Shown piece by piece: positions 4,777 to 44,809 of a stretch of DNA of 46,217 bases. The notes under the pieces were generated by a model. The model was not told the DNA's origin and did not search any database. It saw only the letters and a list, made by a program, of their open reading frames with translations. The stretch covers positions 1-46,217 of the forward strand of contig JAFRKQ010000022.1 of assembly GCA_017431625.1 (NCBI GenBank), read 5' to 3'. Origin of the DNA: a bacterium (GTDB taxonomy: Bacteria; Patescibacteriota; Microgenomatia; UBA1400; PJMF01). The translations under genes and the position numbers were made by a program. Position 1 is the first letter of the stretch; each line of letters begins with the position of its first letter.

Positions 4777-4788
4777 TATGGGATAATA

Positions 4789-4869
4789 TTTGTACGCCTT
4801 TAAGGCTCACAAAATAAGATAATAACTATACATCAATATTTTTTTGTGAGTACAAGAGGCTCACAAAAA
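4789..4869 (+). repeat. Modular palindromic repeat, copy 2
   Basis: Left arm GTACGCCT-TTA-AGGCTCAC, right arm GTGAGTAC-AAG-AGGCTCAC, core with ATAATAACTATACATCAATA. It lies 6 nt past the dprA stop. Confidence 0.9.
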
Positions 4870-9696: not shown

Positions 9697-10559
9697 TGTC
9701 ATATACTTTTTATCTGGCTTCTACTGCTCACTACGGCACCCAAGCGGCTGAGAGTTTACTTGAGACTGGCTTCACTTGCCTGGGAGTGATTACCCCCGCG
9801 CCCAAGCCCCAAGGCCGCAAGCGAGCCCTCATCCCCAATCCCGCCGATTCTTGGGCAAAGAATCGGGGCCTACCAGTTATTTTTATCAAAGACCGGATCA
9901 CCCCTGAGCTTCAAGATCAACTGCAAACTGCTGATTTTCTTCTAGTAGTAGATTTTGGTTATTTTGTGCCACGCTGGTTGCGTGAATTCCCCAAAATCCT
10001 GAGTGTCAACATTCACCCGTCGGCTCTACCCCGCTATCGCGGTGCCAGCCCTGGCCAAGCGGTCCTTTTGCACGGTGATGCCACTTCCGCGGTCTGTATC
10101 ATGACTCTTGCCCAAGCAATGGATGCTGGTGATTTACTGGCACAAATCCCCTTTAGTGTAGATTTATCCTGGACAAGTCAAGATTATTACGATCATGCCT
10201 TCAAGCTTGCCTGCCAGCAACTCCCACAGGTGCTCACCGCTTACGCTCGCCGTCAGCTCACCCTCCAGCCGCAGCAAGGCCAGCCAAGTCTCGCCGGTAA
10301 AATCACCAAAGCCGACACTTTTATCTCTTGGGAAAATTTGTGGCGACCAGAAAACGCCACTCAGATAGAACGAGCCATTCGTGCCTATTATCCACGTCCA
10401 CTCGCCTGGACACTCGTGCCCACCCTCAATGGTGAGCGCCGCCTCCAGTTGCTGCAAGCTCATCTGGATACTACCGGTCAACTTTGCCTTGATCGGGTGA
10501 AACTTGAGGGCGAGACCGCCAAACCTTGGGACAGCGTGCGTGGCAAAATAGCCACCTAA
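9696..10559 (+). CDS. fmt: Methionyl-tRNA formyltransferase
   Basis: 287 aa. Formylates initiator Met-tRNA using 10-formyl-THF. The conserved core SVNIHPSALPRYRGASPGQA contains the catalytic Asn and His and the SLLP-like loop, and MTLAQAMDAGDLLAQ carries the conserved MDAG. A C-terminal OB-like region follows but is shorter than in E. coli Fmt (about 315 aa). Last gene of the ligase-def-fmt operon; a dispersed repeat starts 3 nt after the stop. Confidence 0.95.
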   Translation: MSYTFYLASTAHYGTQAAESLLETGFTCLGVITPAPKPQGRKRALIPNPADSWAKNRGLPVIFIKDRITPELQDQLQTADFLLVVDFGYFVPRWLREFPKILSVNIHPSALPRYRGASPGQAVLLHGDATSAVCIMTLAQAMDAGDLLAQIPFSVDLSWTSQDYYDHAFKLACQQLPQVLTAYARRQLTLQPQQGQPSLAGKITKADTFISWENLWRPENATQIERAIRAYYPRPLAWTLVPTLNGERRLQLLQAHLDTTGQLCLDRVKLEGETAKPWDSVRGKIAT

Positions 10560-10562
10560 TCT

Positions 10563-10646
10563 ATGAGCCTCTTGTACTCACAAAGAAAAATAATGACCGT
10601 ACATCAATATATTTTTGTGAGCCTTAGAGGCGTACGCACCAAAAAT
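10563..10646 (+). repeat. Modular palindromic repeat, copy 3
   Basis: Left arm ATGAGCCT-CTT-GTACTCAC, right arm GTGAGCCT-TAG-AGGCGTAC, core with ATAATGACCGTACATCAATA. It directly follows fmt. Confidence 0.9.
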
Positions 10647-10681
10647 ACCATTTATTTTAGACTTAATTCTCGATTTCACTC

Positions 10682-10832
10682 TTGACAAAAACCCTATAAT
10701 GTGATATAATAAAAGCATCTAACATGATCAATTATCTGCCTAAAGGTGGATGGTGACGCGTGTTAGTGGCGTTCTTTGACATTTCAGACTGTTTAATCTT
10801 GATCACACAACATCAAAAGGAGGTAATATGTA
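10682..10832 (+). promoter_or_regulatory. Strong promoter and boxA leader of the HELAH orphan
   Basis: TTGACA 10682-10687, 17-nt spacer, TATAAT 10705-10710, with a second TATAAT inside the spacer. About 34 nt including this promoter are identical to the promoter at 36591. The ~116-nt leader contains boxA-like GTTCTTTGAC (10771-10780) inside an inverted repeat TGATCAA (10725-10731) / TTGATCA (10799-10805). AAGGAGGT (10817-10824) is followed by ATGTAATG: an AUG-UAA start-stop pair, then the real ATG at 10833. Confidence 0.8.
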
Positions 10833-12596: not shown

Positions 12597-12678
12597 TTTT
12601 TTGTACGCCTCAAAGGCTCACAAAATATAGTGGATACATCAACAAAAAAACTGTGTGAGTACAATGTACTCACAAAAC
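12597..12678 (+). repeat. Modular palindromic repeat, copy 4
   Basis: Left arm GTACGCCT-CAA-AGGCTCAC; the right arm GTGAGTAC-AAT-GTACTCAC is a perfect palindrome. The core (TGGATACATCAAC) is diverged. It lies 19 nt past the rpmB stop. Confidence 0.9.
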
Positions 12679-19329: not shown

Positions 19330-19400
19330 TCCCCGGTGGTGTAACGGCAGCACTACAGGTTCTGGCCCTGTTGATCCTGGTTCGAATCCAGGCTGGGGAT
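19330..19400 (+). tRNA. tRNA-Gln (anticodon CUG)
   Basis: Acceptor TCCCCGG / CTGGGGA, anticodon arm ACAGG-TTCTGGC-CCTGT giving CUG, T-arm CCTGGTTCGAATCCAGG. No encoded CCA. A dispersed repeat starts 16 nt later. Confidence 0.93.
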
Positions 19401-19416
19401 CACTAGTTGAGCGTGC

Positions 19417-19498
19417 TTTTGTACTCACATTGTACGCACAAAATAGAATAATAACTATACACCAATGTATTTTTGTGAGTACAAGAGGCTCACAAAAA
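19417..19498 (+). repeat. Modular palindromic repeat, copy 5
   Basis: Left arm GTACTCAC-ATT-GTACGCAC, right arm GTGAGTAC-AAG-AGGCTCAC, core with ATAATAACTATACACCAATG. It differs from copy 6 by one base over ~78 nt; the two are direct repeats on either side of a toxin-antitoxin pair. Confidence 0.95.
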
Positions 19499-19538
19499 AC
19501 TATCCCCAGAGCACCTGGTTTGTGGTATAATAAGAGCA

Positions 19539-19889
19539 ATGTTAAACACAATTAATCAATCTATCAATTCTTTTGACCCGTTGTTGCTTCGTTGTGTCCT
19601 CAGTCAAGAAAGTGAGCAACTGGAGCGAGCGCGTATGCTGCTTGAATACGATGACCATGATCTCGCCACCATGTTGCGACAAGCAATTAGCACTGTCTAT
19701 CCTCAGCTGGAAAATAGAGAGCGAGATCACGACTATAATCCGCACTCTCCCTGCCCACAAAACGTCGAGCAACTCAAAGCAGCGATCAACCTTGGCCTGG
19801 CAGACTACGAGGCCGGCAGAGTTTGTGATGCCAGCGACGTCCGGGCTGAATTAAGGGCCAAATTTCCAGATTTATGGCCTACAAAGTGA
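19539..19889 (+). CDS. Antitoxin of a ParE/RelE-type module
   Basis: 116 aa. The family is not recognised at the N-terminus. The C-terminal part, GLADYEAGRVCDASDVRAEL, has the Gly-x-(D/E)...ELRAK pattern of antitoxin tails that wrap a RelE/ParE toxin. Assigned mainly by position: the toxin ORF starts inside its last codons (16-nt overlap). ATG 19539 is exactly 7 nt after TATAAT (19526-19531), hence leaderless. Bracketed by near-identical repeats. Confidence 0.7.
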   Translation: MLNTINQSINSFDPLLLRCVLSQESEQLERARMLLEYDDHDLATMLRQAISTVYPQLENRERDHDYNPHSPCPQNVEQLKAAINLGLADYEAGRVCDASDVRAELRAKFPDLWPTK

Positions 19890-20203
19890 TATACACCCAA
19901 CAAGCAAGAAATGAGATCACTGGTTATGTCGACTATATTTTGGATGTCTTTCACAATCGCACGGCTGCCTATAAAAAAGCTCTTATACTTGATTCCATTA
20001 CTGACACACTGGCACAGCATCCACACTTAAGTCATCCATATGATGGTTTACTTTGGCATGACCAGCAACTGTATGCTTACTTAATTGATGTTTACCAGGT
20101 CTTACACATACCAGACGACGCCAAAAAGACCGTGACCGTCATTAGGGTTTTACATGCCGGTCAAGACCTGGCCACTCAACTAGCACAAACAAAAGCCTTA
20201 TAG
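19874..20203 (+). CDS. RelE/ParE-family toxin
   Basis: 109 aa. YKVIYTQQARNEITGYVDYI is the N-terminal strand-helix signature of the family, and TVTVIRVLHAGQDL matches the C-terminal IxRVxHxxRD pattern. Such toxins act on gyrase (ParE) or on ribosome-bound mRNA (RelE); which one cannot be told here. Translationally coupled to the antitoxin. Confidence 0.85.
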   Translation: MAYKVIYTQQARNEITGYVDYILDVFHNRTAAYKKALILDSITDTLAQHPHLSHPYDGLLWHDQQLYAYLIDVYQVLHIPDDAKKTVTVIRVLHAGQDLATQLAQTKAL

Positions 20204-20215
20204 TATTTACTATTA

Positions 20216-20294
20216 TTTTTGTACTCACATTGTACGCACAAAATAAAATAATAACTATACACCAATGTATTTTTGTGAGTACAAGAGGCTCACA
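20216..20294 (+). repeat. Modular palindromic repeat, copy 6
   Basis: Same arms as copy 5 (GTACTCAC-ATT-GTACGCAC and GTGAGTAC-AAG-AGGCTCAC). The outer end supplies the last Val codon and TGA stop of the minus-strand Nudix gene. Confidence 0.95.
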
Positions 20295-20772
20295 CTCGCT
20301 GGCGACGTTCCAGCTCTACCAAGGTTGTCAACACCGCTTGATACTCATCTGGTGCCGAGACTTTCATCGCCCCCAACGTCGATTCCAGTGTCTCCAGACT
20401 CACCCAGCGTGATTGCGCATATTTGGCCTTGGTCAGCATGATTTCTTGTGGCCGGCTTTGGTGCAAACGCGCCAAATAAAGTATCTGTGCCAATTGCTCG
20501 CCCCGATCTGAATTGAAATAACAAAGAACTGTCTGCACGCGCTCTGGCGTCACATCCACATGGAGTTTTTCTTTGATCACACGGCGCAAAGCCGTCTCCA
20601 AGTCCTCACCCAAACGAACGCGACCACTAGGCAACTCAAAGCTGCCCGGCAAAAAACGTCTCGTCTCGGCACGTTTGGCCACAAAAACACGGACGCGCTC
20701 ACCCGTATCGTCATAAATAAGTGCCCCAACACTAAGCGCCTGAGTTTTGATTGTCGATCGCCAAACAGTCAT
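20290..20772 (-). CDS. Nudix-fold protein with a degenerate Nudix box
   Basis: 160 aa. GRVRLGEDLETALRRVIKEK fits the start of the Nudix box (G-x5-E-x7-R), but the catalytic E after R is V, the second E of the EE pair is K and the following Gly is His. FLPGSFELPSG is the usual strand before the box. Hydrolase activity is therefore doubtful; it could be a binding protein, or use other residues. ATG 20772. The stop codon lies in the adjoining repeat. Confidence 0.8.
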   Translation of the reverse strand: MTVWRSTIKTQALSVGALIYDDTGERVRVFVAKRAETRRFLPGSFELPSGRVRLGEDLETALRRVIKEKLHVDVTPERVQTVLCYFNSDRGEQLAQILYLARLHQSRPQEIMLTKAKYAQSRWVSLETLESTLGAMKVSAPDEYQAVLTTLVELERRQRV

Positions 20773-24848: not shown

Positions 24849-24929
24849 TTTTTGTACGCCTCTTGTACTCACAATATAAAATAATAACTATACATCAATA
24901 TATTTTTGTGAGCCTTACAGGCTCACAAG
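24849..24929 (+). repeat. Modular palindromic repeat, copy 7
   Basis: Left arm GTACGCCT-CTT-GTACTCAC; the right arm GTGAGCCT-TAC-AGGCTCAC is a perfect 8-bp hairpin. Core with ATAATAACTATACATCAATA. It ends 1 nt before the stop of the next minus-strand gene. Confidence 0.95.
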
Positions 24930-26287: not shown

Positions 26288-26369
26288 TTTTTGTGAGCCT
26301 TCTGTACTCACATATCAAAATAATAACGATACACCGTATATTTTTTGTACGCCTTTGAGGCGTACAAAA
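26288..26369 (+). repeat. Modular palindromic repeat, copy 8
   Basis: Left arm GTGAGCCT-TCT-GTACTCAC; the right arm GTACGCCT-TTG-AGGCGTAC is a perfect palindrome. Core with AATAACGATACACCGTATAT. This is the only copy whose right arm starts with GTAC instead of GTGA. Confidence 0.95.
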
Positions 26370-30740: not shown

Positions 30741-30818
30741 TTTTGTACTCACATTGTACTCACAAAATCAAATAATGACTATTAACCAAGATATTTTTGT
30801 GAGTACAAGAGGCTCACA
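30741..30818 (+). repeat. Modular palindromic repeat, copy 9
   Basis: Left arm GTACTCAC-ATT-GTACTCAC, right arm GTGAGTAC-AAG-AGGCTCAC, core with ATAATGACTATTAACCAAGA. It ends 7 nt before the vapC stop. Confidence 0.95.
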
Positions 30819-30825
30819 GCTGCCA

Positions 30826-31203
30826 CTACCAAATCGTCTCAACCCCGTAACGAGGAATAATTGTATCTCTTGTGATGATCGTCAATTCCTTTTCCATTGC
30901 CATAGCTATCAGCAAGCGGTCAAAAGGATCGCGATGAATAAAATCCAAAGATTTGGTAATTTCAATGCCTTCTGCAGTCAATGGCAAATGCATAAAGCCG
31001 CAGCGACCACAAAAGTCATCCAACTCAACGATTGACAATTGATCATCTATTTTGCCAAGTTTTTGCTTAATGGCAATCTCCCACAACGATGCCACACCAT
31101 AATAACATTCCTCATTTTCCATCAACTCCAAAGCCACATTTGACAATTCATTGTTGCCTTGCGCATACCAAATCAAAGCGTGCGTGTCTATTAGGTATTT
31201 CAT
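30826..31203 (-). CDS. vapC: PIN-domain toxin, VapC-type
   Basis: 125 aa. MKYLIDTHALIWYAQG gives the first acidic residue, YGVASLWEIAIKQKLGKI the conserved Glu, and HRDPFDRLLIAMA the later Asp residues, with TRDTIIPRYG at the end: the PIN nuclease set. VapC toxins cut tRNA or rRNA. It overlaps its antitoxin gene by 4 nt (ATGA). Confidence 0.93.
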   Translation of the reverse strand: MKYLIDTHALIWYAQGNNELSNVALELMENEECYYGVASLWEIAIKQKLGKIDDQLSIVELDDFCGRCGFMHLPLTAEGIEITKSLDFIHRDPFDRLLIAMAMEKELTIITRDTIIPRYGVETIW

Positions 31204-31406
31204 TCCATGTATTCCTGAAAATCATTGACTGGAGCATCAAAATCAGCAGCAACAAAGTTAATTCTATCCCTCAAACCACCAAAATTTGTCCGAGAGCCAC
31301 TTTGAGAGTTCTTAGATTTCATCGCCAAAAAATAAGCAAAATCCAAAAGCTCTTGCTGTTGGACGCAAGATAAGGTTTCGTAAACTTGAGCAAGCTTTTC
31401 CGGCAT
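31200..31406 (-). CDS. DUF2281-like antitoxin partner of VapC
   Basis: 68 aa. CVQQQELLDFAYFLAMKSK and the C-terminal DFDAPVNDFQEYME match the DUF2281 antitoxin pattern (helix LPxxxxxEVLDFIEFL, then DFDAPLxDFxEY). The tail would block the PIN active site. ATG 31406 with AAAGGAG. Confidence 0.85.
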   Translation of the reverse strand: MPEKLAQVYETLSCVQQQELLDFAYFLAMKSKNSQSGSRTNFGGLRDRINFVAADFDAPVNDFQEYME

Positions 31407-31525: not shown

Positions 31526-31616
31526 TTTTTGTGCGCCTCGTGTACTCCATAGGGAGTACAAAGATAAATTATTGCTATACACCAATATATTTTTGTGAGT
31601 ACAAGCGGCTCACAGC
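31526..31616 (+). repeat. Modular palindromic repeat, copy 10
   Basis: Left arm begins GTGCGCCT-CGT, then GTACTCC-ATA-GGGAGTAC, an inserted hairpin replacing the usual second octamer; right arm GTGAGTAC-AAG-CGGCTCAC. Core with ATTATTGCTATACACCAATA. Together with copy 9 it brackets the VapBC module. Confidence 0.9.
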
Positions 31617-35029: not shown

Positions 35030-35096
35030 GTTTAACAAATGTTAAACGTTTGTTAAACGTATATATCTGGTTTTTGGTGACAAAAATTTACAGCCG
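35030..35096 (+). repeat. Second repeat family (B), copy 1
   Basis: Three GTTTAAC/GTTAAAC words, then CTGGTTTTTGGTGACAAAAA and TACAGCC. A matching element is at 39305. Confidence 0.65.
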
Positions 35097-36403: not shown

Positions 36404-36592
36404 GACTGGTATTATAACACAAGAATTTTCCCGATCATGGCGAGTGTCAGACTCGAGAAAAATCAGTGACAAATCAATAAAAACTCTTCATTATCGCTAG
36501 GCAATTATATCTTATAATAAATTTATTATCAAAGATAACTATCGGCCCAATGCTGACACCATCGGCTTTTGCTCACGCCTGGAAATTGCCTC

Positions 36593-36793
36593 TTGACAAA
36601 AACCCTATAATGTGATATAATAAGAATATCTTAACAGTACATTACTATTGTTTAACTGGTATTTTTATCGGTCTAAACGGTAGTTGTACTAGTGAGTCGT
36701 TCTTTAACAAAGTATCAAAGGACTATTCACTAGTTGTCGTGCTGTGCGTGCGGTCAAAACCCGCACAAATTTACAAAAAGGGGTCAACTGAAA
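36593..36793 (+). promoter_or_regulatory. Strong promoter and boxA leader of the surface HExxH protein
   Basis: TTGACA (36593-36598), 17-nt spacer with an internal TATAAT, TATAAT (36616-36621). The leader has GTTCTTTAACAA (36699-36710) inside an inverted repeat ACTAGTGA (36688-36695) / TCACTAGT (36727-36734), then a GTGCGG/CCGCAC hairpin and AAGGGGT before ATG 36794. Confidence 0.8.
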
Positions 36794-39304: not shown

Positions 39305-39366
39305 CGTTTAACACTTGTTTAACAAACGTTTAACAAAAAAGCCTGGTTTTTGGTGACAAAAAAATA
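39305..39366 (+). repeat. Second repeat family (B), copy 2
   Basis: GTTTAAC words followed by CTGGTTTTTGGTGACAAAAA and TACAGCC, as at 35030, in the same orientation. Confidence 0.65.
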
Positions 39367-39497
39367 CAGCCAGATGACAAAAATACCAATTAATATATCA
39401 AAAGTAATGCCAAACAATCGCTTGCCATCAATTACTTGCAATTTTGACCACAAGTGTGTATAATGATCCTGACAATAATGATTTTAGAAAGGATCAG

Positions 39498-40352
39498 ATG
39501 CTCGTCAATGCCAAACAAGTCCTGGCAGCCGCCTCGCGTGAAGGGTACGCTGTGGGACACTTCAATATCAACAATCTTGAGACCATTCAGGCTATCATGA
39601 GCGGTGCCACCGCCAAAAAATCACCAGTGATTCTGGCCGTTTCCAAAAGTGCGATCAAATATGCGGGTTTGGACAACTTAGTGGCGCTCGTGCGCCTGGC
39701 TGCCCAAAAGGCCGATATCCCCGTGATTCTCAATCTTGATCACGGCCCCAGCGTCGAGCTAGCACGCGAATGTATTGACGCTGGCTTTACCAATGTCATG
39801 ATCGACACTTCAGGCCTCCCCTACGCTGACAATGTCGCTGCCACTCGTGAGGTGGTCGCTTATGCCCACGAGCGTGGTGTGAGTGTGGAGGCCGAAATCG
39901 GCGCCCTCGCCGGCACAGAGGACAATATCTCCGTGGCCGAGCAAGATGCCCGCTACACCAAGGTAGAAGAAGCGGTCAGTTTTGTCGCCGACACTGGCAT
40001 CGACTCGCTGGCTATTGCCATTGGCACCGCTCACGGCGTCTACAAAGGCGAACCGCGACTGGATTTTGACCGTTTACTAGCGATCCATCAAGCAATTCCC
40101 GAGACCCCACTGGTCTTGCACGGCTCCTCAGGCGTGCCTGCCGAGTCCCTGCGCGAGGCGATCAAGCGCGGGATCGCCAAAATCAACATTGACACCGACT
40201 TACGTCAGGCGTTTTTGCGCACTATCAATGCCAAAATGAACGCCGAGCCAGAAAGTGTCGACTTGCGGGCAATTTTGGGCGCTGGCCGCGAGGCGATCCA
40301 ACATACGATTGAGGCCAAAATCGACATTTTTGGCAGTGCTGGCCGTGCCTAA
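39498..40352 (+). CDS. fba: Fructose-bisphosphate aldolase, class II
   Basis: 284 aa. Zinc-dependent aldolase of glycolysis. AVGHFNINNLETIQAI, VILNLDHGPSVE (zinc His), GVSVEAEIGALAGTED, AIAIGTAHGVYKG (zinc His), LVLHGSSGVP (zinc His) and KINIDTDLRQAF are all in order. ATG 39498 with GAAAGGATCAG is preferred to an ATG 18 codons earlier, which overlaps the promoter (TTGCAA 39436, TATAAT 39459-39464). Confidence 0.96.
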   Translation: MLVNAKQVLAAASREGYAVGHFNINNLETIQAIMSGATAKKSPVILAVSKSAIKYAGLDNLVALVRLAAQKADIPVILNLDHGPSVELARECIDAGFTNVMIDTSGLPYADNVAATREVVAYAHERGVSVEAEIGALAGTEDNISVAEQDARYTKVEEAVSFVADTGIDSLAIAIGTAHGVYKGEPRLDFDRLLAIHQAIPETPLVLHGSSGVPAESLREAIKRGIAKINIDTDLRQAFLRTINAKMNAEPESVDLRAILGAGREAIQHTIEAKIDIFGSAGRA

Positions 40353-40373
40353 ACTTATTTTGTTGCCAAGGTA

Positions 40374-40397
40374 AAAACGGCCGCTTACGGCCGTGTT
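40374..40397 (+). terminator. fba terminator
   Basis: ACGGCCG / CGGCCGT with a CTTA loop and flanking A and T runs. Confidence 0.8.
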
Positions 40398-40398
40398 T

Positions 40399-40416
40399 GT
40401 GTAGTATAATACACCA
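40399..40416. repeat. Imperfect copy of the GTGTATTATAATACAC palindrome
   Basis: GTGTAGTATAATACAC, one base off the palindrome found at the higBA promoter. It is about 70 nt past the higA stop. Confidence 0.4.
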
Positions 40417-40487
40417 AATACTAACCAAAACACCCGATCAACCCGCTTGCCAATCACGATTCTGCCAGGAAGATGATACTCTACCAC

Positions 40488-40805
40488 TCAACAGTACTGA
40501 GCTGGCATGTTTTCTGAATTGATGCGTTGTGGCACCAGGGTATACCCCAAAGCATGGATCACTTTAAAAAGGGTATCCATTGTGGGATTACCACCTTTAT
40601 CAAAGGCACGATATAGCCCTGAACGATTCTTGCCAGTTTCTTGAGCAATCAAACCCCAACGCTTTTGTGCCTTGGCCACATCACCAAGAGCGCGAGCGAT
40701 CTCTTGAGCATCACCATCCTCAAAAACCACTTGCAGATAAGCGTCGCATTCTTCTTGAGTTTTTAATTCATTTATTAAATCCCACTTATGTAATGTCACG
40801 GTCAT
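40488..40805 (-). CDS. higA: HigA-type antitoxin
   Basis: 105 aa. A helix-turn-helix region runs through AKAQKRWGLIAQETGKNRSG and GNPTMDTLFKVIHALGYTLV, as in the HigA-2/XRE-like antitoxins paired with Gp49-type killers; the DNA-binding role implies self-repression. It overlaps the toxin gene by 20 nt and follows it, the higBA order. Confidence 0.88.
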   Translation of the reverse strand: MTVTLHKWDLINELKTQEECDAYLQVVFEDGDAQEIARALGDVAKAQKRWGLIAQETGKNRSGLYRAFDKGGNPTMDTLFKVIHALGYTLVPQRINSENMPAQYC

Positions 40806-41097
40806 AAATATCCTTTCTGATTTGTTGTGCCATCTTGATATCCCGTTGTTGCGTTCTCTTCGTGCCGCCTACAAGCATTACAATCACCTGTCTGATTTTG
40901 ATAAAATAATACAATCTGTAGCCTCCAGCATAATTAATCTTTTTTTCGTATATATCACCACAAACCTGTCTTGTCTTCCCTAGATTACCGTCTTTGATTC
41001 GCTGCAAGTGTTTTCTAATAGTAGCCACAGCCAAAAGGTCATCAATGTTATTAATCCAAGTTTCAAACTCGTCAGTAGTCATTATTTCATAAGTCAT
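40786..41097 (-). CDS. higB: HigB/RelE-type addiction toxin
   Basis: 103 aa. TTDEFETWINNIDDLLAVAT, IRKHLQRIKDGNLG and YAGGYRLYYFIKIRQVIVML plus LVGGTKRTQQRDIKMA match the Gp49-like killer proteins, which cut mRNA on the ribosome. ATG 41097 lies exactly 7 nt after TATAAT (41110-41105), leaderless; the TTG further up lies in the promoter. -35 TTGACA (41132-41127), 16-nt spacer. Confidence 0.9.
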   Translation of the reverse strand: MTYEIMTTDEFETWINNIDDLLAVATIRKHLQRIKDGNLGKTRQVCGDIYEKKINYAGGYRLYYFIKIRQVIVMLVGGTKRTQQRDIKMAQQIRKDIYDRDIT

Positions 41098-41119
41098 ATT
41101 GTGTATTATAATACACAAT
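41098..41119 (-). promoter_or_regulatory. Perfect 22-bp palindrome over the higBA -10
   Basis: ATTGTGTATTA plus its exact reverse complement, covering the -10 box and the start site. Likely HigA operator (inference). The same sequence recurs between groES and groEL. Confidence 0.75.
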
Positions 41120-41192
41120 TCTGGTTTGTCAAGACCATATCCAGAGCCTTATCACCAAAGCACTGAATTATGAAGCGCATTCCCGTCAAAGC

Positions 41193-42860
41193 TTAAGGTT
41201 GATAGCGATAAGTCTTCGCCACATGCTTACTATACCTGGATACTCCCTGAGCGGTCAGCCAGTGGGACCAGTTACCCGTGGCGCAACCATTGACCGGAGC
41301 AATTTTAAAGGAGTATTGTTGTACCGGATTGAGATTGCTAATATCAAGAGCCAACACACCAGAGACATCATCGGCTTTCATCGAGACACCACCAAAACGT
41401 TCGTCACCTTCTTGATGACCAAAAACAACGTGATAACTATAAGCACCGGCGGCTGGAGCAAAGTATAAAGTGGCTTTATCCCCCACCCGGTCAATCTGGA
41501 AAAGATCAGCTTGACCAGAGGGCGTGGTGTCAGCACAAGTTTGAGGCTTGGCCTCGTTGGGGACATTGTCACCGCTGGCGTGGCGATCATTAGGGTCAGA
41601 AGTAGGAGCAGGAGAGTTGACCTCGCCCTTCTTCTTATCATCATCCAGCCGAATGGTTTTCGTTTCCCCTTTTTCTATCCTGTAAGACCACAAGTCACCA
41701 GCCTCATCAAGATTTACTTCCTCAAGGATATACTCAAAATCAAGCTCCTTTTTGCCCAACATCGTCATGTAAGTGCGCGCGATCTCCTGTATTGACTCAT
41801 CCAATTCTACCGCGCCCAGGCTTACAATCTGGCCATCAGTAACATTGAGGATATAGTAATCCTCAAGATTGTCATCACTGCTACCGTTAGTCGGCACGAT
41901 CATCATATAATCAGCCGCTCCACCAACATCCATGACTTGTTCCATATACTCTTTTACCTCAGCTGGAGTCCGCTCATCATCAAATTGCACCGTTAGCTTG
42001 CCTTTGTAGCTCTGGAGCGAATAAAAATAGTAAGTCTCATCAGTATCTGGCATCTGGAAAATCCACTCATCAACATCAAAATACAATTTCTGTTGCCACT
42101 CATCATCCAGTTGTGAATACACCCTCACCACCAACTCGGGTGCCGCTATAATTCTCCCTGGTGTCGCCTCCCCTTTTTGCGCCCACATCATCAAAACATC
42201 TGAGTCTGGTTTGTAATAAAATTCCAGGAGATACGCGAGTTGACCATTTTCGTCCAATTGGGAAAAAACAACTTCCGTCACAAAAAAATCATCCACTTGA
42301 GTGATGAAATATTGGAACATCGGCTCTATATCCATAATATCTTGAGTAATATAGTGTTTATCACTGCCAAAATCTGTTTCCAGCAAGAGCCGGCCGTCCA
42401 AATCTCTGACTTCCCCTTTCCCTTCATTTAAGGCGATATAATCACTACAGCCGGAGGTATCAGGAGCACTAGTATAACAAATATCATGCCACGCCAGTTC
42501 TTCCCAAGCCGCATCAAAAGTCGCTACCGCTTCGTCTGCCTGGGTGTAAACATTACGGCTATCATCCAGGCGAAATCGGATCATGCTTAGCTCCCTGGTC
42601 GCGTCAAAACTAACCACCATCGCCGCCGTCTCCATATCTGCGCCGATATAATTGATCTGGTCAAACACTGTAATATCATTGTCTATCGCACTCATCAAGG
42701 CTGTTAGATCAGCATAAACAGCTGTCTGCTGAGTCGGCTCTTCTGCCTGAGCCAAAGGCACTAGACTCGCAAAACGCTCAGATGTCACTACACTAGCACT
42801 CACTGCCATCAGACTCAAAACCAACGCTAAAACACCAAAAAATCCTTTATGTCTTGGCAT
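41193..42860 (-). CDS. Large exported acidic protein with a C-terminal FN3-like domain
   Basis: 555 aa, function not recognised. Signal peptide LALVLSLMAVSASVV with a likely cut after PLAQA. The mature part is acidic and beta-rich (VVRVYSQLDDEWQQKLYFDV). A Pro/Ser/Asp linker near residues 415-445 leads to a ~95-residue domain with fibronectin III features (KATLYFAPAAGAYSYHVVFG, NLNPVQQYSFKIAPVNGC). Probably secreted or surface-bound. ATG 42860 with GGAAGGAT, preferred to a TTG one codon earlier. TATAAT at 42924-42919. Confidence 0.75.
   Translation of the reverse strand: MPRHKGFFGVLALVLSLMAVSASVVTSERFASLVPLAQAEEPTQQTAVYADLTALMSAIDNDITVFDQINYIGADMETAAMVVSFDATRELSMIRFRLDDSRNVYTQADEAVATFDAAWEELAWHDICYTSAPDTSGCSDYIALNEGKGEVRDLDGRLLLETDFGSDKHYITQDIMDIEPMFQYFITQVDDFFVTEVVFSQLDENGQLAYLLEFYYKPDSDVLMMWAQKGEATPGRIIAAPELVVRVYSQLDDEWQQKLYFDVDEWIFQMPDTDETYYFYSLQSYKGKLTVQFDDERTPAEVKEYMEQVMDVGGAADYMMIVPTNGSSDDNLEDYYILNVTDGQIVSLGAVELDESIQEIARTYMTMLGKKELDFEYILEEVNLDEAGDLWSYRIEKGETKTIRLDDDKKKGEVNSPAPTSDPNDRHASGDNVPNEAKPQTCADTTPSGQADLFQIDRVGDKATLYFAPAAGAYSYHVVFGHQEGDERFGGVSMKADDVSGVLALDISNLNPVQQYSFKIAPVNGCATGNWSHWLTAQGVSRYSKHVAKTYRYQP

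Positions 42861-43180: not shown

Positions 43181-44809
<1,629 letters not shown>

Follow-up and report, generated by a model that had tools for sequence, protein, structure and literature searches.

The locus studied here raises the question whether a toxin-antitoxin (TA) pair enclosed by two almost identical direct repeats has travelled as one repeat-TA-repeat unit, or whether the pair and its repeats came to stand side by side in some other way. The window, i.e. the whole stretch of DNA analysed (46,217 nucleotides), is the entire contig C25 of a draft genome of 1.137 Mb in 32 contigs, which is 96% complete. The named relatives nearest to the LeuRS of this organism are Patescibacteria, at about 55% identity, with Parcubacteria and Falkowbacteria among the best in a contig scan; these matches place the organism in Patescibacteria but are too remote to compare gene order.

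The TA operon and its flanking repeats

The locus opens with a tRNA-Gln (CTG) gene at 19330-19401 on the plus strand, detected by ARAGORN and Rfam. The left repeat (copy 5; 19417-19494, plus strand) begins 15 nt past the tRNA 3' end and is composed of a GTACTCAC-att-GTACGCAC arm, a 35-nt centre and a GTGAGTAC-aag-AGGCTCAC arm. It is followed on the same strand by the putative antitoxin, a 116-aa ORF (19539-19889) without a Pfam match, whose likeness to RelB/ParD is a weak one (NF050811, E 1.1e-6, with a score of 29 bits where the cut-off is 60), and by a 109-aa ParE toxin (19874-20203; PF05016, E 1.2e-7, over the gathering cut-off) which has paralogs in the same genome. The two ORFs overlap by 16 bp in a two-gene operon. 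About 14 nt past the toxin stop lies the right repeat (copy 6; 20217-20294, plus strand), and the convergent gene of a NUDIX hydrolase (20290-20772, minus strand; PF00293, E 1.4e-11) has its stop codon, at 20290-20292, within this repeat. A second copy of the tRNA-Gln 3' end was not found in the window, and the tRNA gene was for this reason rejected as an integrase attachment site.

By its sequence the TA pair appears ordinary. It shares with the type II systems of the ParDE/RelBE superfamily the overlapping two-gene operon with a RelB/ParD-like gene preceding a ParE gene (PF05016), and its sole oddity is the divergent antitoxin, which remains below the family cut-off. Like other ParE-family pairs it would consist of a toxin neutralised by its antitoxin, encoded by an autoregulated operon. 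A ParE paralog on contig C10 likewise has an upstream partner ORF of similar size, and a search of plasmids and PDB with the toxin sequence gave no match.

The preliminary description of this locus had stated that the two repeats differ at a single base over about 78 nt, that they flank exactly one ParE/RelE-type module and that all other pairs of copies are much more diverged. All of this holds: the repeats match at 77 of 78 positions, the difference being in the centre (AATAGAATAA versus AATAAAATAA), one TA operon (19539-20203) lies between them, and the mean identity of all pairs of copies is 64%, the next best pairs reaching 90-91%. The nearest third copy, at 30741-30818 on the plus strand, is 90-91% identical to either of the two. 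As the likeness of copies 5 and 6 ends sharply on both sides at the boundaries of the family itself, each repeat is an element in its own right rather than the edge of a larger duplication.

Two other pairs of similar sequences were noted in the window. One is a 66-bp repeat pair, rich in GTTTAAC palindromes and 76% identical, at 35030-35095 and 39306-39371; the other is a promoter-like pair (TTGACA...TATAAT), 93% identical, at 10679-10720 and 36590-36631, both members of which are upstream of large ORFs without strong Pfam matches.

Anatomy and occurrence of the repeat family

When the repeat-bearing contigs were searched with profiles, about 28 full-length or near full-length copies and several single arms were recovered. 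The element consists of two 19-bp arms, each made of an 8-mer, 3 nt and a second 8-mer, around a conserved AT-rich centre (e.g. AATAATAACTATACACCAATATATTTTT), and in 21 of the 25 tabulated doublets one arm starts 54 nt after the other. The 8-mers are words drawn from a small set, GTGAGTAC, GTGAGCCT, GTACGCCT, GTGCGTAC and GTCAGTAC, together with their reverse complements. Terminal inverted repeats are present, the left arm and the reverse complement of the right arm sharing about TTTTGTRMGCCTCTTGTACTCACAAAA. A degenerate arm pattern matched 36 sites in the genome, compared to none for the reversed control pattern, which is far beyond chance.

Covariation between the 8-mer half-arms did not exceed that of shuffled partners, and base pairing inside the element was on this ground rejected as a selected feature. 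Nor are the repeats intrinsic terminators, since the T-run stands 5' of each arm and not 3'. No target-site duplication was detected, flanks sharing k-mers to the same degree as a mismatched-flank control, and no linked transposase or parent transposon was found in the genome. The sole Y1_Tnp match of the genome is an IS200-like transposase on contig C24; no repeat lies within about 1.5 kb of it, and a link to the repeats was rejected.

The degenerate arm pattern had no site in 41 further genomes of the same taxonomic family, among them the one genome of the same genus, G001, which is only 76% complete. A sample of 374 genomes of the class gave no convincing arm match; five other genomes had one site each, which is near the control background, and the sequences were unlike the arms. 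Searches of public genomes, in which the present genome may itself be absent, and of viral contigs, phages and plasmids, with the element or its arm, returned no match. The repeat family is previously unlisted and, of the genomes covered by these searches, the present one alone appears to carry it.

Placement of the elements at gene ends and along the chromosome

The elements mostly adjoin gene 3' ends, often at a distance of 0-16 nt, and the common distances to neighbouring 3' ends are -4, 0, 1, 4, 5, 6, 7 and 8 nt. In three cases a gene runs into an element by the identical 4 nt and has its stop codon inside it. The majority of copies stand between ordinary genes, examples being topA/dprA, tmk, recR and dut, and conserved gaps are also occupied, such as the one between topA and dprA, two genes which are neighbours in the complete relative G004 too. 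This topA-dprA copy is at 4788-4865 (plus strand), 10 nt off the dprA stop. Further plus-strand members in the window are found at 10559-10636, at the end of a formyltransferase gene, at 24850-24927, 3 nt off the end of a 418-aa ORF, and at 26289-26366, while two have the opposite orientation (minus strand), at 898-976 and, with a diverged centre, at 12600-12676. The TA bracket follows from this general placement rule, with copy 5 just past tRNA-Gln and copy 6 at the 3' ends of the toxin and NUDIX genes.

About 25 of the 28 elements are located on contigs C20, C2, C25, C8 and C14, which make up 15% of the assembly. On C20 the GC skew flips at about 8-12 kb, beside dnaA at 14.4 kb. Synteny with G004 puts C20, C2, C25 and C8 on one arm, mostly 0 to about -160 kb from dnaA, with some of their genes mapping elsewhere in G004; about 25 copies are on contigs placed by synteny on one replichore, within about 165 kb of oriC. 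A synteny break inside the window is marked by a Cpn60/TCP-1 chaperonin gene (43181-44806), whose best G004 match is on the other arm (+101 kb). On C20, at 39790-42051, genes for a RelB-family protein, an S24 peptidase (UmuD-like) and a polymerase recognised by eye as UmuC-like were noted, with a repeat between the last two.

With respect to orientation, the G-poor strand carries 22 of 27 elements (P 0.0015 in a two-sided test, and 0.0025 once the duplicate is left out). Because most copies are on one arm, it is hard to separate a replication-strand bias from simple co-orientation. Transcription is no explanation on C25, since the coding capacity of this contig is balanced between the strands. 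The bias would be compatible with single-strand mechanisms like those known for IS200/IS605 elements (PMC6006769).

The repeat family is more interesting than the TA pair, being a REP-like family in a small genome, with interchangeable 8-mer words and arms whose spacing is almost always 54 nt. A far-reaching reading, which we put forward tentatively and think unlikely, is that these are undescribed, word-swapping and replication-oriented elements which, in this patescibacterium, spread only on one origin-proximal arm and have a tendency to gather TA pairs, be it through single-stranded DNA copying at the fork or through a function of the origin arm, e.g. in chromosome organisation. If the confinement to this arm survives long-read assembly, it would offer a way to test the spread or role of short repeats with respect to replication in uncultured small-genome bacteria.

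Toxin copies elsewhere and the locus in a relative

A second copy of the toxin is found at the end of contig C24, which stops inside the gene. It is about 98% identical to window 19935-20181 and diverges from about 20182 on, 36 bp before the place of the repeat, which is absent there; the shared TA unit therefore ends within the toxin gene, away from the repeat. Past the point of divergence C24 reaches a terminator-like hairpin shared with the convergent gene of a glycine-rich protein. This copy is readable on its 3' side alone, its 5' or antitoxin side, which may have an upstream repeat, being unassembled. It belongs to the region C24:146000-151132, and about 3 kb from it are found a tyrosine recombinase gene and a sequence like the 3' half of a tRNA, on account of which the C24 copy may belong to an integrative element. 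The loci of the ParE paralogs on C10 and C11 and in G001 had no convincing repeat match.

In G001 the gene order is response regulator, tRNA-Gln, a 217-aa membrane-protein-like ORF and LeuRS, and the TA pair, the NUDIX gene and the repeat are all absent. The empty site with a single repeat, which the preliminary description had predicted for a sister genome, is thus not what G001 carries; at this locus the relative has neither the TA pair without the repeats nor the two repeats without the pair, so that it does not refute the prediction either. As the interval between tRNA-Gln and LeuRS is variable and houses another gene in G001, no clean empty site can be read from it.

Origin of the bracket

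On balance, we think it probable that an ordinary TA pair stands here between two 3'-end repeats, one of which is a recent product of copying or conversion of the other. The locus, which is variable between tRNA-Gln and LeuRS, houses an ordinary ParE-type TA operon, flanked by two members of a REPIN-like short intergenic family which settles at gene 3' ends; one of them comes just past tRNA-Gln and the other where the toxin and NUDIX genes converge with their 3' ends. Their 99% identity would reflect recent local copying or gene conversion between neighbouring elements and not transposition of repeat-TA-repeat. Two neighbouring repeats fit better than a jumping cassette because the repeats belong to a family which hugs gene ends, and local copying or conversion explains the data with fewer assumptions.

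The cassette proposed in the preliminary description, in which repeat, TA pair and repeat moved or were inserted as a unit with the repeats as the ends of a composite mobile element, is a reading which we do not favour and consider rather improbable. Its premises stand, in that the repeats share very recent ancestry and bracket exactly one TA operon. A second TA pair is also bracketed: a VapC-like PIN toxin (30826-31203; PF01850, E 3.9e-10) and a DUF2281 antitoxin-like protein (31200-31406; PF10047, E 1.5e-11), encoded on the minus strand at 30826-31406, have the third closest copy (30741-30818) on their left and a diverged copy with a 10-nt insertion (31528-31614, plus strand) on their right, and the spacing of the bracketing repeats is 796 bp, nearly that of the ParE pair, 800 bp. 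Four TA modules were recognised on the repeat-rich contigs, the ParDE and VapBC pairs of C25 and, by eye from the sequence, a PIN pair on C2 (4896-5530) and an MNT/HEPN-like pair on C8 (13522-14215). Two of these four are tightly bracketed (P 0.028, permutation, post hoc), and the three most similar repeat copies of the genome all flank TA pairs. These observations, together with the unassembled 5' side of the C24 copy, count against local copying or conversion as the explanation and are a hint, not proof, of a tie between repeats and TA pairs.

The movement itself, on the other hand, finds little in its favour. Of the repeat ends expected of a composite transposon in independent copies of its cargo, the downstream one is absent from the near-identical C24 toxin copy, whose upstream side is unassembled, and the other ParE loci have no convincing repeat match. 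The copies which flank VapBC are diverged from each other, most members of the family separate ordinary genes, and bracketing of gene units in general is at chance level (6 observed, compared to 4.6 expected from random placement in gaps on four contigs). The lack of target-site duplications and of a linked transposase argues in the same direction. Deletion of the pair through recombination between both repeats, as the preliminary description had suggested, is possible.

A single crossover could also have inserted a circle, bearing one repeat beside the TA pair, into a repeat already present at tRNA-Gln, with two direct copies as the outcome. This predicts near-identical direct copies without target-site duplication, as observed, and agrees with the patchy occurrence of this TA type, which among 88 genomes of the order is present only in this genus. 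We nevertheless hold it to be improbable, as 78 bp is short for homologous recombination, the other assembled TA copies have no adjoining repeat, and the donor would have to carry a nearly identical repeat, yet the family has no counterpart in the genomes searched.

It is very unlikely that the bracket is an effect of assembly, in which the toxin loci of C25 and of the C24 end, with at least 79 identical bases, were joined or collapsed in the draft, so that repeat-TA-repeat may not exist as drawn. C24 does break off within the toxin gene, its first mismatch with C25 being 79 bp away from this end, and the antitoxin half of its copy is nowhere else in the assembly; against this, C25 continues for 26 kb, and the flanking response regulator, tRNA-Gln and LeuRS genes are syntenic in G001.

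A cassette of a site-specific recombination system, either an integron attC or an Xer/pdif module, which might be suggested by a small unit with a TA pair, set between short and imperfectly palindromic sites, TA genes being common in integron and Xer/pdif-type systems, is hardly credible, since a dif search allowing at most three mismatches to the E. coli-type dif, whose consensus may not be that of the host, gave no match in the window, no attC end-box pair GTTRRRY/RYYYAAC was seen by eye in the elements read, and core genes too lie between repeats which do not have a cassette-array layout. The genome has four tyrosine recombinases, none of them on the repeat-rich contigs C2, C8, C20 and C25, according to a general search not specific for IntI.

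Comparison with known systems

The dif modules of Acinetobacter (PMC6449649, PMC13141974) resemble the locus in being small accessory gene units with short sites on both sides, but the sites described here are not dif-like and mostly separate core genes. With elements of the MITE type, such as the enterobacterial RU elements (PMC2759123), the repeats have in common a length of about 78 bp, a non-coding and intergenic nature and terminal inverted repeats of roughly 27 bp; they differ from these in that neither a target-site duplication nor a parent transposon was detected in this genome. The repeats also resemble REPINs, or REP doublets, which are short, extragenic, inverted doublets of two palindromic units with a spacer, dispersed in one genome (Bertels and Rainey 2011, PMC3116915), and REPs in general are mostly downstream of genes (PMC3733652). 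The repeats are likewise extragenic two-palindrome doublets, present in many copies, a number modest for a REPIN family, and adjoining 3' ends. In distinction to REPINs they have no associated RAYT (TnpA-REP) flanked by a repeat, the only Y1 transposase being the IS200-like one with no element nearby, their arms are built of mixed, interchangeable 8-mers without pair covariation, and they are mostly confined to one origin-proximal segment.
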